NCBI GenBank assembly: GCA_018715225.1 | Contig: DVMB01000079.1 | Span: forward strand, 1-33,458 | Length of the DNA: 33,458 nucleotides | Reading direction: 5' to 3' | From: Candidatus Onthoplasma faecigallinarum | Lineage (GTDB): Bacteria; Bacillota; Clostridia; Christensenellales; UBA1242 | Shown: positions 71-27,221 of the stretch, one piece after another | Position numbering within the stretch: the first letter of the stretch is position 1 | How the letters are laid out: each line of letters opens with the position of its first letter | The notes under the pieces: model-generated | What the model saw: only the letters and a program-made list of their open reading frames with translations | What the model was told of the DNA's origin: nothing | The model's database searches: none | Made by a program: the position numbers and the translations under genes

Positions 71-1975
71 ATGAAGAAATTTTTATCTTTTTATAATATC
101 TATTCCATACAAAAACGCTTTGTAGCGACACTATTAATTGTGGCTATATTGTTTGTTGCTTTGCTGATGCGTGTGTTCTATTTGCAGATTATTGATGGAA
201 GAAATCTACAAGTTTTAGCCGCTGAAGAATGGCTAAGAGATCTGCCACTTTCAAGCAAACGTGGAGAAATTTTAGATAGTTCGGGTGTCAGCCTAGCTAC
301 GACTATTACGACGTATGATGTCTATGTTCGAGCACGGAATGTAACTGAACCCGCTAAGTTAGCACGAGCGTTGAGTGATTCATTAAACATTGATTATGAA
401 AAGGCTTACACAAAGGTGACGAATACCAGTTTGAGCGAAATCCTAATAAAGATGCAAGTAGATGAAGATGTTGCACTATCCTTGACTCAATATGATGGTG
501 TATATCTATCTCAAAATGTGGCAAGAGTGTATCCATATTCAAGCTTATTAACCCAGGTGTTAGGGTATTGCACTATTGATAACATTGGGCAGGCGGGCTT
601 GGAATCATATTATGATAAATATTTGAAAGGGGTGGATGGCAAAAGTCTCACTCAAACCAATGCCCAAGGAAAAGAGATTGAAAATTCGCTAAGTTATTAT
701 ATCCCAAGTGTTGCCGGTGCGGACATTAATACCACGATTGACGTGCAAATGCAGTCGATATTGGAGCGAGAGTTGCAAGTTGCATATGAAGAGAATCAAG
801 CACTTGGCGTCAGCGGAATAATTTTAGACGCTCAAACTGGAGGAATAAAGGCCATGACTTGTCTGCCCGGATTTGACTTAAACAATGTGCCACGTGATGA
901 TATTTCAAGTTTGCAAGAGATGACGAAAAATTCAACAGTAGTAGACGTATATGAGCCAGGTAGTACATTTAAGTTGATCACTTTGGCTGCGGCTTTGAAT
1001 GAAGGATTGACGAGCATAGACGAACATTTTTATTGCGGTGGTAGATGTACAGTAGATGGTGAGACCATCAAATGTTGGAAAACAGTTGGACATGGCAGTT
1101 TGACTTTGCTAGATGCTTTTAAAAATAGTTGTAACTGTGTGTTTGTTCAACTTGCTTTGAGATTGGGGGTAGATAAATATTATGAATACCTAGAATATTT
1201 TGGGCTAGGAGAAAAGACGGGCGTGGATATAGCCAGCGAATCAAGTGGCATCATCATGCCGAAAGAAAATGTCAGGAATGTAGATCTAGCACGTATAGGG
1301 TTTGGTCATGCGATTGCGGTAACTCAATTGCAAATGGCTACAGTCTACGCAAAGATAACGACAGGTTATGAAATTACACCACACTTATTGGAGAGCATAA
1401 CCAGTAACGGAGAGGTTTTGTATCAAACCAATTCTTCAAAAAATGAAATAAAATTGTCAAAAAGCACCATAGAAACGGTCAATATGATGCTGGCAAATAA
1501 TGTAAACAGTGAAGGGAATTATACTTTCATAGCAGGTTATGATGTTGGGGGAAAGACTGGAACGGCTCAAAAATATGGGGAAGATGGGCAGATAGCAACA
1601 GGAAAATATATCTCCAGTTTTATAGGAACATACCCAGCAACGAATCCAGAATACATAATAATAATTTGTATAAACGAGCCGTCAGCGGGAGCGTATTATG
1701 GTGGAGTCGTGGCAAAACCTGTAGGGGAGCGAGTGTTGAAATCAATTTTTGAAACGAAAGCGATAGCACCTACCGACGCTTCTCAATTAGATAATACGCC
1801 AAATATTTTGATGCCATATATAGTAGGTAAAAGTTTGGCTGACGCTTGTAGTGAATTGAAGAAATTGGGACTAAATGTTTTGTTTGACGGAGAAGGAGAA
1901 TACGTTGTTGAACAGTTGCCTCCAGAGGGGACACTTTTATATCTGGGAGAAGTGGTATATATAATTACGAATTAA
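71..1975 (+). CDS. spoVD: Class B penicillin-binding protein, SpoVD/PBP2-like transpeptidase with one C-terminal PASTA domain
   Basis: N-terminal TM segment; transpeptidase motifs EPGSTFK (SxxK), SCN (SxN), GGKTGTAQ (KTG); C-terminal PASTA-like 'MPYIVGKSLADACSELKKLGLNV'; first gene of a mur/fts cluster. Confidence 0.9.
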   Translation: MKKFLSFYNIYSIQKRFVATLLIVAILFVALLMRVFYLQIIDGRNLQVLAAEEWLRDLPLSSKRGEILDSSGVSLATTITTYDVYVRARNVTEPAKLARALSDSLNIDYEKAYTKVTNTSLSEILIKMQVDEDVALSLTQYDGVYLSQNVARVYPYSSLLTQVLGYCTIDNIGQAGLESYYDKYLKGVDGKSLTQTNAQGKEIENSLSYYIPSVAGADINTTIDVQMQSILERELQVAYEENQALGVSGIILDAQTGGIKAMTCLPGFDLNNVPRDDISSLQEMTKNSTVVDVYEPGSTFKLITLAAALNEGLTSIDEHFYCGGRCTVDGETIKCWKTVGHGSLTLLDAFKNSCNCVFVQLALRLGVDKYYEYLEYFGLGEKTGVDIASESSGIIMPKENVRNVDLARIGFGHAIAVTQLQMATVYAKITTGYEITPHLLESITSNGEVLYQTNSSKNEIKLSKSTIETVNMMLANNVNSEGNYTFIAGYDVGGKTGTAQKYGEDGQIATGKYISSFIGTYPATNPEYIIIICINEPSAGAYYGGVVAKPVGERVLKSIFETKAIAPTDASQLDNTPNILMPYIVGKSLADACSELKKLGLNVLFDGEGEYVVEQLPPEGTLLYLGEVVYIITN

Positions 1976-2236
1976 ATAATTGATAAAAGTCTTTTGATTT
2001 GAATCTTTAAGTCTTTTTGGTTCTGTTTTTGGTAATTCAAATCAAGTTTATATTTAATTTACAGCGATTATTTGTAAATTTGTCGCCAAATGAATAATAT
2101 TTAAAAAATTAGTGAAAAATTAATGATTTTATGAGATATATGTAAAAATTTTTATACAAATAGAATTTTTTGTCTTATTTTAGTGGTCGAGAAAAATTGC
2201 ATATTTAATATGCTACATTATGGTGGAGAGGTGATT

Positions 2237-3697
2237 ATGAAACTATATGATATAATTTCCAATTTAAAATTCGTGGGTATAAAGAACTATCAAGAACTAG
2301 ATATTGATGCATTGACTTGCAATAGCAATGAGAAAACGCAAAATGGTATTTATTTTTGTATCAAAGGCTTGAATAATGATGGGCACGATCATGCAGTAGA
2401 CGCAATAAAAAATGGTGCGGTATGTCTGGTCGTTGAAAGATTTTTAGAGATACCCGTATGCCAAATATTAGTGGAAAACAGTAGGGCATGTATGTCGTAT
2501 ATAAGCTCAATATTTTACGAGACATACAAGTCAAAGATGAGATTTATAGGCATTACAGGCACCAATGGTAAAACTACCACTACATTTTTAATAAGAGAAA
2601 TTTTGACAAAATTAAATAGAAAGGTTGGAATGATAGGGACCGAGGGGGTGTATATAAATAATCTTTTGTTGCCTCCAACATTGACGACGCCAGACCCAAT
2701 CGTTTTGCATAGACTATTGCATGATATGGATAATAATGGATGTGAATTTTGTGTGATGGAAGTGAGTGCACACGCCATAGCTCTAAATAAAATAGATAAT
2801 ATTTATTACGATGTGGTGGGACTGACAAATATTACGAAAGACCATTTGGACTTTTTCGTAAATATGGATAATTATATCAAATGTAAAGCAAGCCTGTTTG
2901 ATTATAGGCACGCTAAGGCTGGAGTGATCAACACAGATGCAAAATATGGAAAAGAAATTGCAAAAAGATCAAACATAGAGATTACGACTGTGGGAAGAGA
3001 CGGCGAGATAAAAATAATCAACACAGTAAATACCTTGAAGGGCACAACAATCACATTTGAATATAAGGGCAAGGAATATACCACTAATACTAATCTAATA
3101 GGTGATTATAATGTGGCGAATGTGATGATGGCGATAGCCTGTCTAACTGATGTCAATATTGACATAAAAGATATATGCAATGCATTGAAAAATATAGATA
3201 TTGTAGTGCCAGGGAGATTCAATTTTTTGGACATAGACGCCAATTTTAATGTGGTAATAGATTACGCACATACTCCAGATGGTATCAAGAATATCTTATC
3301 TACGATAAAACAATTACCGATAGCACGACTGATAACTGTGTTCGGCTGTGGAGGGAATAGAGACAAGACAAAACGAAGTGAGATGGGAGACATGGCTTGT
3401 GGGCTAAGTGATTATGTTATCGTAACGAGTGATAATCCACGCTTCGAAAATCCTGAACTCATCATAGATGATATATTGCGAGATAACACCAGTAAGAATG
3501 TAGTAAAGATTACGGATAGGAAATCGGCAATAGAGTATGCCCTGTCTATAGCGAGAGATAACGATGTGGTGGCGATCCTCGGGAAAGGGGCAGAAAATTA
3601 TCAAGAAATAAAGGGCGTAAAATTTCCATACAGCGATTATGATGTTGTAGATAATTATTTCAAATATCAAAATAAGAGTGTACTAAGACATGATTAG
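2237..3697 (+). CDS. murE: UDP-N-acetylmuramoyl-tripeptide synthetase MurE; start moved to the ATG at 2237, preceded by GGAGAGGTG
   Basis: ATP-binding ITGTNGKTTTT, Mur ligase motifs, DNPR motif; the ORF-track start at 2183 (GTG) lacks an SD. Confidence 0.92.
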   Translation: MKLYDIISNLKFVGIKNYQELDIDALTCNSNEKTQNGIYFCIKGLNNDGHDHAVDAIKNGAVCLVVERFLEIPVCQILVENSRACMSYISSIFYETYKSKMRFIGITGTNGKTTTTFLIREILTKLNRKVGMIGTEGVYINNLLLPPTLTTPDPIVLHRLLHDMDNNGCEFCVMEVSAHAIALNKIDNIYYDVVGLTNITKDHLDFFVNMDNYIKCKASLFDYRHAKAGVINTDAKYGKEIAKRSNIEITTVGRDGEIKIINTVNTLKGTTITFEYKGKEYTTNTNLIGDYNVANVMMAIACLTDVNIDIKDICNALKNIDIVVPGRFNFLDIDANFNVVIDYAHTPDGIKNILSTIKQLPIARLITVFGCGGNRDKTKRSEMGDMACGLSDYVIVTSDNPRFENPELIIDDILRDNTSKNVVKITDRKSAIEYALSIARDNDVVAILGKGAENYQEIKGVKFPYSDYDVVDNYFKYQNKSVLRHD

Positions 3698-4685
3698 ATT
3701 GTTGATAGCATTTTTGTTAAGTTTTGCTTTGTCAGTCATACTGATGCCGTTGGTCATAAAATTTTTTAAGAAAAAGAGCGCTAACCAAACCATTCTGGGC
3801 TATGTCGAAAATCATAAAGAAAAAAACGGGACAACAACAATGGGTGGTGTAATATTTATTATTAATACACTATTGCTGGCGTTCGTGTTTTTGAGATATG
3901 ATACGACTTGGTTCATGACATTGATGATAAGTGTCTTTTTTGGCGTGCTCGGTTTGATGGATGATTATCTAAAGGTTAAATACAGGCAAAACTTGGGACT
4001 TCGTCCTTATCAAAAGATCATTGGACAACTTGGCATTTCAATAATATTTGCATTATTTGTCTACTTTTCGTATCAAGGAGGGAATATTTTTATTCCGTTT
4101 ACAGAAAACTCTTTTGATATAAAATTTTGGGTCATTCCGCTTGTTGTGGTTGTGTTGATTGCATCATCAAATAGTGTAAATTTGACTGACGGCTTAGACG
4201 GCTTGGCAGGGAAAGTCAGTTTGATATATTTGGTGATGTTTACAATAATCACTTCCTTGGTGTCAAATCACTTGTATCAGTCAGGGGAGACTGGACAGAT
4301 ACTTTCAAATATACAAAACATAAACATTTTATCCATGTTGTTCGCTGGGGCGATACTTGGTTTTTTGATGTTCAATACATCAAAGGCGTCAATATTTATG
4401 GGAGATGTGGGCTCTCTTTGTCTTGGGGGATATATTGGTGCGGCTGCTTGCGTGTTGGGTATGGAATTAATATTGCCGATATTGGGTTTCTGTTTTGTGT
4501 TCAGTGCCATTTCTGTAATATTACAAGTGGCAGTATTCAAACTGAAAAAACGACGTGTTTTTAAAATGGCACCTTTTCATCATCATTTGCAGATGTCGGG
4601 TCTAAGCGAACCAAAGATAGTAGCAATATATTCAGCAATAACTCTATGCATTGGCATAATATGTATTATTTTTTACCTTTTGTAA
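3690..4685 (+). CDS. mraY: Phospho-N-acetylmuramoyl-pentapeptide-transferase MraY
   Basis: Polytopic; motifs GLMDDYLK, NLTDGLDGLAG, FMGDVGSLCLGG, MAPFHHHLQ. Confidence 0.95.
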   Translation: MIRLLIAFLLSFALSVILMPLVIKFFKKKSANQTILGYVENHKEKNGTTTMGGVIFIINTLLLAFVFLRYDTTWFMTLMISVFFGVLGLMDDYLKVKYRQNLGLRPYQKIIGQLGISIIFALFVYFSYQGGNIFIPFTENSFDIKFWVIPLVVVVLIASSNSVNLTDGLDGLAGKVSLIYLVMFTIITSLVSNHLYQSGETGQILSNIQNINILSMLFAGAILGFLMFNTSKASIFMGDVGSLCLGGYIGAAACVLGMELILPILGFCFVFSAISVILQVAVFKLKKRRVFKMAPFHHHLQMSGLSEPKIVAIYSAITLCIGIICIIFYLL

Positions 4686-24860: not shown

Positions 24861-25211
24861 ATGAGAATTAAACGTGGAGTTAATGCTAATAAAAAACGTA
24901 AAGCTATCCTAAAACAAGCAAAGGGCTATCGTGGAGCAAAGTCAAAATTGTATAGAGTTGCTCGTGAAGCAGTGATGAAATCTGGTCAATATGCTTATGT
25001 TGGTCGCAAGTTGAAGAAACGTGATATGCGTTCACTTTGGATCACTCGTATCAACGCAGCATGCCATGAAAACGGCGTTTCATATAGCGTATTTATCAAT
25101 GGGCTAAAGAAAGCCAACATTGACCTAAATCGTAAAGTGCTAGCTGACCTTGCTGTTACAGACAAAGTAGCATTCGCAAAACTTGTAGAGACAGCAAAGA
25201 AAGCTATATAA
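24861..25211 (+). CDS. rplT: 50S ribosomal protein L20
   Basis: [31 protein letters not shown]...[24 protein letters not shown]. Confidence 0.97.
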
Positions 25212-25235
25212 TCTAAATAGACTTTATAATCAATC

Positions 25236-25262
25236 AAAAATCACGGTTCAACCGTGATTTTT
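25236..25262. terminator. Bidirectional terminator, repeat copy 1
   Basis: AAAAATCACGGT-tca-ACCGTGATTTTT between convergent rplT and xre. Confidence 0.85.
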
Positions 25263-25330
25263 ACTTTTTATAATGATTAAAATAAAAATAATAATGCCAA
25301 TATCTTTAGAATTTTTGATATTACTCGAAT

Positions 25331-25534
25331 TTATTTGTTTTTAAATTCATGCCCAGTTATTAGGTAATCAATGGATACATTAAAATATTTCGACATTGAG
25401 ATTAAAAGTTTTAGACTAGGCTCACGTTTGCCATTTTCATAGTAAGATAACGCTTCACGTGAAATATTCAAATCAATCGCTACTTTTTGTTGATTTAATC
25501 CTTTTAATTTTCGTATTTCTTTCAATCCTTTCAA
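25331..25534 (-). CDS. XRE-family HTH transcriptional regulator
   Basis: KEIRKLKGLNQQKVAIDLNISREALSYYENGKREPSLKLLISMSKYFNVSIDYLI; TTG start with AAGGA SD. Confidence 0.9.
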   Translation of the reverse strand: MKGLKEIRKLKGLNQQKVAIDLNISREALSYYENGKREPSLKLLISMSKYFNVSIDYLITGHEFKNK

Positions 25535-25561
25535 TAATATCCTTAAATCATTAAATATCTG

Positions 25562-25613
25562 TTGACATTATTGTAACATTTTGTTAATATTTAAAATGTA
25601 ACAATGTGTTACA
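25562..25613 (+). promoter_or_regulatory. Promoter with two putative operators between xre and the divergent membrane protein gene
   Basis: TTGACA - 17 nt - TAATAT; TAACA-ttt-TGTTA (25574-25586) in the spacer; TGTAAC-aatgt-GTTACA (25597-25613) at the predicted TSS; centres 25 bp apart. Confidence 0.65.
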
Positions 25614-25624
25614 TAGGAGATGTT

Positions 25625-26293
25625 ATGCAAAAGAAAATTTTCGATAAAAGAGAAAAGGTATTTGTAGTTATATTATCAGCACTTATTTCAATTTTATGCT
25701 TCGTTGCGTATATTATCAATTTTGTAGACATAACTGATGCAATTAAACTTATCCAAGACTATATTGATTTAACAAACATAAATTATATTAAGTTTATTTC
25801 AATATTTGTCTTGATTATGTGTATGATTATGTTTTTGGTATCATTCGTATTCCTATTTATTAAGGACGTTGGTTTAAAAAGGTCAATTTTACTAATAATC
25901 ATCTTATTTTCTGGAATATGCTTTATCACCTACTATATTATGTTGTTTTCTGTTCAAGGGATGGATGGTACAGATTTAACAATAGCAAATTTATTTTTAA
26001 CGAGTTTTGTGTATATAAATAATGTAATCATTTTTACCAATGTTCAGTCATATTTTAATTTTAGTTTGTCCAATCAAATCTATGTACATGATGAGAAAAA
26101 AGATGTTAACAATGAGCATTCCAAAAAGATAATTATTAGACCTAAAGATACTGGCTCAACTGGCCAGGTGTTGAGTGAAGAACAAATTCAGGAAAACGCT
26201 CTGGCAGAATCTATTGAAAAATTAAGAAGTCAGTTGCGCATAAAAGATTTGGAAAAACAATATTTAGATTTGAAGCGAAAACTAGATGAATAA
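25625..26293 (+). CDS. Multi-TM membrane protein with C-terminal charged helical tail, unknown function
   Basis: SD AGGAGATG before ATG 25625; about four hydrophobic segments; tail 'ESIEKLRSQLRIKDLEKQYLDLKRKLDE'. Confidence 0.75.
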   Translation: MQKKIFDKREKVFVVILSALISILCFVAYIINFVDITDAIKLIQDYIDLTNINYIKFISIFVLIMCMIMFLVSFVFLFIKDVGLKRSILLIIILFSGICFITYYIMLFSVQGMDGTDLTIANLFLTSFVYINNVIIFTNVQSYFNFSLSNQIYVHDEKKDVNNEHSKKIIIRPKDTGSTGQVLSEEQIQENALAESIEKLRSQLRIKDLEKQYLDLKRKLDE

Positions 26294-26374
26294 AAAATTG
26301 TCAATTTTACTTCTAAATAAAATATTTTAAACTATAAATTTTTATCAATAGCTTTATATGTAAACAGATATTAT

Positions 26375-26404
26375 AAAAAAATCACGGTTCAACCGTGATT
26401 TTTT
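26375..26404 (+). terminator. Terminator, repeat copy 2
   Basis: AAAAAAATCACGGT-tca-ACCGTGATTTTTT; core identical to 25236-25262. Confidence 0.85.
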
Positions 26405-26460
26405 GATTTTATATTATGATTTTATTATAGGCTAAAATTTTGTCAAGGTACATACTAAGT

Positions 26461-26489
26461 TTGACAAGGGCTTGATTATTTGGTATATA
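26461..26489 (+). promoter_or_regulatory. Extended -10 promoter of the SpoU methyltransferase gene
   Basis: TTGACA - 17 nt - TATATA with TGG before the -10; 6 nt separate it from the ATG. Confidence 0.68.
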
Positions 26490-26495
26490 TATTAT

Positions 26496-27221
26496 ATGGA
26501 ATTGACGAAACAGGATATCAAAAATCTAAAGGATAAAAGATATAGGCGTGAGCATGGCATTTTTCTAGTAGAGGGAGAGAAATTTTGTCATGATTTGCTA
26601 GATGCAAATGTTGAAATTTTGGCAACTATCACAACAGATAAAGAATTAAAAGGTTTCCCAAATACAATCGTTGTAAACGAGAAAGTCTTATCAAGCATTG
26701 CCACCACCAAGACAAATCAAGATATAGTCTGCGTGGCGAAGATAAAAGAGTTTGATTTGACGGCGAGGGGAAATTCGCTCATCTTGGATAGGTTACAAGA
26801 CCCGGGGAATGTAGGCACCCTCATTCGCTCGGCGAAAGCGTTTGGTTTTGACGATGTATATTTGATAGATTGTGCGGACTCATACAGCGAAAAAGTTGTA
26901 CGCAGTTCGGCAGGCACCGCCTTGAGCATAAGACTACATCAGGTGAGCCTAGAGAATGTAGAGCGTAACAAACCAAAAATTGCAGATGTTTTCATGGTGG
27001 CGGACATGTTTGGTGAGAGTATCACCAAAATTCGTTTGCCAAAAGGACGAATTGCTGTTATAATTGGTAATGAAGGGCAAGGAGTATGTGATGAGCTAAA
27101 ATTTCTTGCCGATCTAACTATAAGTATACCTATGTGCGCTGGCGTTGAGAGCTTGAATGCTGGAGTGGCAGGTAGTATAATTATGCAAAAAATTAGCGAG
27201 GTGAATTGTGTCAGGACATAG
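26496..27221 (+). CDS. SpoU/TrmH-family RNA 2'-O-methyltransferase
   Basis: LDRLQDPGNVGTLIRSAKAFGF, VIIGNEGQGV, ESLNAGVAGSI motifs. Confidence 0.92.
   Translation: MELTKQDIKNLKDKRYRREHGIFLVEGEKFCHDLLDANVEILATITTDKELKGFPNTIVVNEKVLSSIATTKTNQDIVCVAKIKEFDLTARGNSLILDRLQDPGNVGTLIRSAKAFGFDDVYLIDCADSYSEKVVRSSAGTALSIRLHQVSLENVERNKPKIADVFMVADMFGESITKIRLPKGRIAVIIGNEGQGVCDELKFLADLTISIPMCAGVESLNAGVAGSIIMQKISEVNCVRT

Follow-up and report, generated by a model that had tools for sequence, protein, structure and literature searches.

A regulator/membrane-protein module bracketed by copies of a host terminator hairpin in Candidatus Onthoplasma faecigallinarum

Introduction

IS1272 and TnSha1 of Staphylococcus (IS1182 family) target hairpins, often terminators, without primary-sequence specificity, and TnSha1 takes a passenger gene to terminators (PMC5678879, PMC4923244). 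They use a transposase and terminal inverted repeats, and the target hairpin is deleted upon insertion, with no duplication left (PMC5678879, PMC4923244). As a theoretical alternative, the IS1272 model includes a "pathway b" (Fig. 13), in which the stem-loop is attacked at its 5' feet and may thereby become duplicated (PMC5678879). Here, we describe a two-gene module that likewise sits at terminator hairpins of unrelated sequence, at five sites. It differs from IS1272/TnSha1 in that the hairpin is present on both sides in two genomes (G000 and G007) instead of being deleted, and in that the module has neither a transposase nor terminal inverted repeats. By this comparison, IS1272/TnSha1 appears to be the closest known system, and the arrangement of the module fits the "pathway b" outcome.

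The pdif modules of Acinetobacter plasmids are described as small gene sets with dif-like, conserved XerCD sites (PMC6449649, PMC13141974). They resemble our module as small gene sets between short palindromes that are mobile without a recombinase of their own. The bracketing sequence of our module, in contrast, is the local host terminator and varies by site.

Group IIC introns insert at intrinsic terminators using intron RNA and a reverse transcriptase, and they do not duplicate the hairpin. The module has terminator insertion in common with them, but no intron RNA or reverse transcriptase. In Cas1/casposase-type integration (CRISPR), a palindromic repeat is attacked in a staggered manner at its two ends and is thereby duplicated in full. 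Duplication of a whole palindrome is the likeness here, whereas the insert of the module, at ~1 kb, is the difference. Pairs of an XRE and a membrane protein, of toxin-antitoxin or phage-repressor-like type, likewise have a small XRE repressor that is transcribed away from the gene it probably controls; the membrane partner in our module, however, belongs to no known family. The HTH domain of the module resembles RstR and PHROG repressors, with matches below the full-length cut-offs. In the open-access literature, we found no report of terminator duplication around inserted genes.

Results

Two identical hairpins bracket a divergent gene pair

The window is the whole stretch of DNA that was analysed, 33,458 nucleotides of contig DVMB01000079.1 (genome G000). 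As described in the initial annotation, it holds a divergent regulator/membrane-protein pair between rplT and a SpoU methyltransferase gene, in the order hairpin, XRE (−), mem (+), hairpin (Table 1). The reported 27-nt repeat was found at both positions as an exact match with 0 mismatches, and the number of 27-mer pairs expected by chance was 0.00 (100 dinucleotide shuffles). Identity between the left and right copy is 27/27, loop included. The initial annotation had proposed a genome-wide count of the 27-mer, since a common terminator would speak against its reading. A scan of the assembly (1.01 Mb, 79 contigs, 76% complete) gave these two copies only, with up to three mismatches allowed; the hairpin is therefore not a common terminator. 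Both copies fold into strong hairpins with T-tracts (−14.3 and −16.1 kcal/mol, z ~ −5.8), and the right one folds on the opposite strand too, i.e., they are intrinsic terminators of bidirectional form.

Table 1 Features of the module and its host neighbours in the window
Feature	Position	Strand	Remarks
rplT, host gene upstream	24861..25211	+	Left hairpin is its terminator; orthologue in 31/34 genus genomes
Left hairpin, AAAAATCACGG-TTCAA-CCGTGATTTTT	25236..25262	.	rplT terminator; also 3' of XRE on the − strand
XRE-family (HTH_3) repressor, 67 aa	25331..25534	−	Pfam HTH_3, E = 3.4e-17
Predicted mem promoter	25562..25590	+	−35 TTGACA (25562–25567), 17-bp spacer, −10 TAATAT (25585–25590)
Operator-like O1, TGTAACATTTTGTTAAT	25572–25588		Overlaps the predicted promoter, in its spacer
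Operator-like palindrome O2, TGTAACAATGTGTTACA	25597..25613	.	Between −10 and RBS
Membrane protein (mem), 222 aa	25625..26293	+	Four TM-length helices and a helical cytoplasmic tail
Right hairpin, second 27-nt copy	26377..26403	.	~83 nt past the mem stop
SpoU-type rRNA/tRNA methyltransferase, host gene downstream	26496..27221	+	

Genes and control region of the module

XRE and mem are the only genes inside the module, and no recombinase is among them. Terminal inverted repeats are absent as well, as the left and right ends of four modules are no more alike than shuffles.

The XRE protein is 80–91% identical in the remaining carrier genomes. The membrane protein, with the tail consensus ..KLKxQLRIKDLEKEYLKLKxKLDE, has no credible-score match in Pfam, NCBIfam, PADLOC, or PHROGs. 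Its AlphaFold model (pLDDT 76) has four TM-length helices plus the tail, and a structure search with this model was uninformative (best PDB match E = 0.54). The membrane profile also matched G protein-coupled receptor chains weakly (E 0.004), which we took for generic helical TM similarity.

The control region was read from the sequence and an alignment of the eight intergenic regions. We predict a near-consensus promoter for mem, with one operator-like sequence in its spacer and another downstream of the −10 element. The full palindrome TGTAACANNNTGTTACA between the −10 element and the RBS is unique in the G000 assembly, and the operator is exact in seven of the eight modules and degenerate in G017. 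The pair has the features of an XRE-regulated divergent module: the regulator has an HTH domain, and the promoter region common to the two genes holds conserved palindromes of operator type. The XRE protein would repress mem through twin TGTAACA-N3-TGTTACA-like operators. Between G000 and G020, mem diverges far faster (45–47% protein identity) than XRE (91%). XRE is most likely the repressor of mem, and mem most likely a tightly controlled, fast-diverging membrane effector, either toxin-like or an immunity/exclusion protein.

The module is accessory and occupies five chromosomal sites

The pair occurs in 8 of 34 genus genomes, as one copy each and with both genes together. Four genomes carry it between rplT and the SpoU gene (G000, G004, G043, and G044); the other positions are between rplS and comM (G020), after a GNAT gene (G017), after gapdh (G007), and between a pflA-like gene and rpiB (G016). 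The insertion of a small accessory module, as suggested initially, is supported by this distribution: the pair is at the rplT site in 4/34 genomes and elsewhere in four more, and the proposed search at other loci yielded four further chromosomal sites. A scan of the named genomes returned seven loci, which agree in match position with the genus carriers. An order-wide sample of 396 genomes gave G000 and G007 and, otherwise, only four weak partial matches. The pair is thus, as far as searched, an accessory two-gene module restricted to the genus. A phage origin was rejected, as the membrane protein had no relative in viral contigs in a pattern-based scan.

A tree of four genes places G000 and G020 as sisters, with G016 next to them (support 0.80), yet each of the three genomes carries the pair at a different site. 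The pair after rplS in G020 is absent from G000 within the 282 bp that the contig holds there. Three core proteins encoded in the window region, those of infC and rplT and a YebC-like one, are 98–99% identical between G000 and G020. Set against these core proteins, the low identity of the two membrane proteins indicates that the copies were acquired separately or exchanged. We infer only six acquisitions in total (G000; G020; G016; G017; G007; and the group of G004, G043, and G044). Those genomes that have a named record are all metagenome assemblies.

G004 and G043 share a stretch of 97–99.5% identity from the end of infC to the middle of the SpoU gene, with the pair included (L052 about 1700–4150 and the matching L053). 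The blocks flanking this stretch are mostly 89–96% identical, and the two genomes are not sisters in the tree, at a node of weak support. The simplest reading of the shared block is that it was transferred recently, by homologous recombination within the core genes on either side.

Filled and empty sites

On the left of the module, G000 and G020 are 95% identical at the DNA level, and this homology runs through the first hairpin to about 25278. On the right, it restarts at 26407, directly past the second hairpin. Replacement of the right flank of G000 by recombination was rejected for lack of a sharp identity step. The rplT-SpoU interval of G020 has one hairpin with the same stem and the loop TCTAT; after it come a gene for an HA-domain helicase and one for a protein of 80 aa. 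As both copies in G000 have the loop TTCAA instead of that of the sister, they share a recent origin. The interval was compared in the relatives, as the initial annotation had proposed, and empty intervals with a single hairpin were found in G005, G006, G007, G013, G045, G047, and G049. None of the empty sites among the genomes compared has the same stem, and G020 has the other module there.

The gapdh site of G007 is a second, independent case of duplication with an unrelated hairpin sequence. Here, two near-identical hairpins bracket the pair, AAACTAGC-GGTT-GCTAGTTTT on the left and AAACTAGC-TGTT-GCTAGTTTT on the right. The gapdh locus of G010 and G049 holds only one CTAGC..GCTAG hairpin and no pair, and a conserved gene follows downstream. 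The outer flanks of G007 match these relatives on both sides, and its right hairpin runs straight on into the downstream sequence that they have. The loops of the G010 and G049 hairpins differ from those of G007. The initial annotation had offered two routes, and insertion with terminator duplication is strengthened by this case with another hairpin and single-hairpin relatives.

On its left, the pair lies next to a terminator-like hairpin of the host at each of the five sites. The reading frame of XRE in G017 ends within the hairpin stem of the neighbouring gene's terminator (AAA AAT CGC TAA; L005 ~1195–1240), and its stop codon abuts the hairpin stem in G007 and G016, which indicates that the module ends at the terminator. 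The genus has no close orthologue of the GNAT gene of G017 at which an empty site could be read.

The duplicated stretch is about 27–33 bp long in G000 and about 28–30 bp in G007; no clear one is present in the other four acquisitions. Duplication upstream of the hairpin in G000 is suggestive but not significant (28/500 shuffles reach it), and there is none downstream of the hairpin.

Matching neighbouring terminators are rare in the genus

We collected 189 intergenic terminators from 15 stretches of the genus (~0.83 Mb); among them, 144 pairs of neighbours are separated by less than 3.5 kb. The brackets of G000 (Smith-Waterman score 31, 51-bp windows) and G007 (29) are the top two of these pairs, followed by a pair of partial similarity in G040 (22). 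Among 17,292 unrelated terminator pairs, one scores at least 31 and two reach 29, which corresponds to background rates of about 6e-5 (G000) and 1e-4 (G007) per pair. The sole pair of this set that reaches 31 consists of the orthologous rplT hairpins of G011 and G018. A general habit of terminator copying in the genus was therefore rejected, as the module brackets rank first among the 144 neighbouring pairs.

The remaining brackets lie within the background: 4.5% of unrelated pairs score as high as that of G017, 16% as high as that of G016, and 54% as high as that of G004. The module after rplS in G020 has no right hairpin copy. A clear duplication is thus seen in two of the six inferred acquisitions, with G017 weak, G016 and G004 negative, and G020 without a second hairpin. 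The rplT terminator is almost wholly different in sequence between most species, at a gene that is itself about 77–99% identical (loci L009–L038); older duplicates could therefore have decayed. The duplication is derived from the target and linked to the module, though not visible in every copy, and it is neither a repeat nor a habit of the genus.

Discussion

We consider it probable that the module settles at intrinsic terminators and that, in G000, the target hairpin ended as a direct copy on each side. The module would have entered at the rplT terminator, with the hairpin copied to both sides. Each outward-facing module gene and its host neighbour would then keep a bidirectional terminator. 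The duplication would have arisen during insertion with enzymes supplied in trans. Staggered joins at either foot of the hairpin, filled in afterwards, could account for it, as could template switching through the A/T tracts. A more specific version is a tentative proposal: a non-autonomous element may join extruded terminator hairpins, staggered at the feet of the cruciform, and so duplicate the whole hairpin, the "pathway b" outcome (PMC5678879). Once at a site, the module would also spread between species by homologous recombination via flanking core genes.

The other readings differ mainly in where the second hairpin came from. The module could have inserted beside a terminator without duplication, and the second hairpin could have been copied from the first at a later time, through template switching or through recombination of palindromes lying close together; the need of mem for a terminator would have favoured this. 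Insertions without a second matching hairpin, among them the G020 module, agree with such later copying, as does the fast turnover of terminators in the genus, where rplT hairpins differ between species. But no other neighbouring genes in the ~0.83 Mb were copied to a like degree, which would make the copying special to the module, and the right hairpin of G007 runs into the native downstream sequence of the single-hairpin relatives; we regard this reading as unlikely. In a Campbell-type event, a DNA circle or donor fragment bearing both the module and the target terminator would have recombined with the one hairpin present. This would give the direct repeats at both ends that a single crossover produces, and homologous recombination of flanks is active in G004/G043. 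The donor, however, must already carry the same hairpin, a matching one for each of the two sites since their hairpins differ, and the shared stretch of about 27–33 bp is short for RecA recombination. This origin seems to us quite improbable.

Strong terminators also share an architecture of A-tract, stem, and T-tract, and the third-ranked pair (G040) is partly similar. Coincidence or convergence would nevertheless have to account for identity that includes the loop, at the background rates given above, and for both extreme cases bracketing the same module, and we give it very little weight. Least credible of all is a dif/Xer-type or other site-specific module. The size and palindromic layout would suit it (11+5+11 for the 27 bp, against 11+6+11 for dif), and the pdif modules of Acinetobacter carry small gene sets between dif-like sites (PMC6449649). 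The bracketing sequence is, however, wholly different by site (ATCACGG at rplT, CTAGC at gapdh), and each hairpin is the host gene's own terminator in relatives, not a fixed recombination site. A dif/Xer site was rejected, as the module ends have no conserved core sequence. CRISPR/casposase integration was rejected as well, since neither G000, at 76% completeness, nor G007, at 99%, has Cas1 (PF01867); it is present in G020, G044, and G015.

Our preferred reading, settlement at a terminator with copying of the hairpin, bears on how accessory genes enter operon ends. Such genes often lie there, and entry without harm to termination is rarely seen. Two independent insertions of one module have the host terminator at both ends, which would solve the termination problem in one step. 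The direct repeats left by the hairpin copies could also let the module excise cleanly. Should the duplication belong to the integration process itself, it would represent a mode of target duplication set by structure and not by sequence or a fixed length. The two cases point to a small mobile module with terminators as its landing sites, which become duplicated. Its signature, identical neighbouring terminators around small gene sets, can be used to scan other genomes.

Other observations at the rplT and rplS loci

The rplT-SpoU interval (window 25212–26495; L049, L051, L055, L056, L066–L068) is an insertion hot spot in the genus. Its content was named by eye from the sequences, except for the G020 helicase. 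Helicase modules are found in G011, G018, and G020, a large repeat protein together with a lipoprotein-like one in G017, an ArsR-like regulator and a P-type ATPase-like protein in G012, a methyltransferase-like protein in G048, and small membrane proteins in G002 and G040. The small gene in G002 (L030/L072) lies between hairpins sharing the 6-bp stem AGGACT, a similarity within the background (6.8% of unrelated pairs are as high).

At the end of the rplS-comM interval, many genus genomes have the conserved motif TTCAAACATTTGTTCGA.AA or near-variants before comM (L118, L120, L121, L124, and others). This motif may be a LexA-like box.
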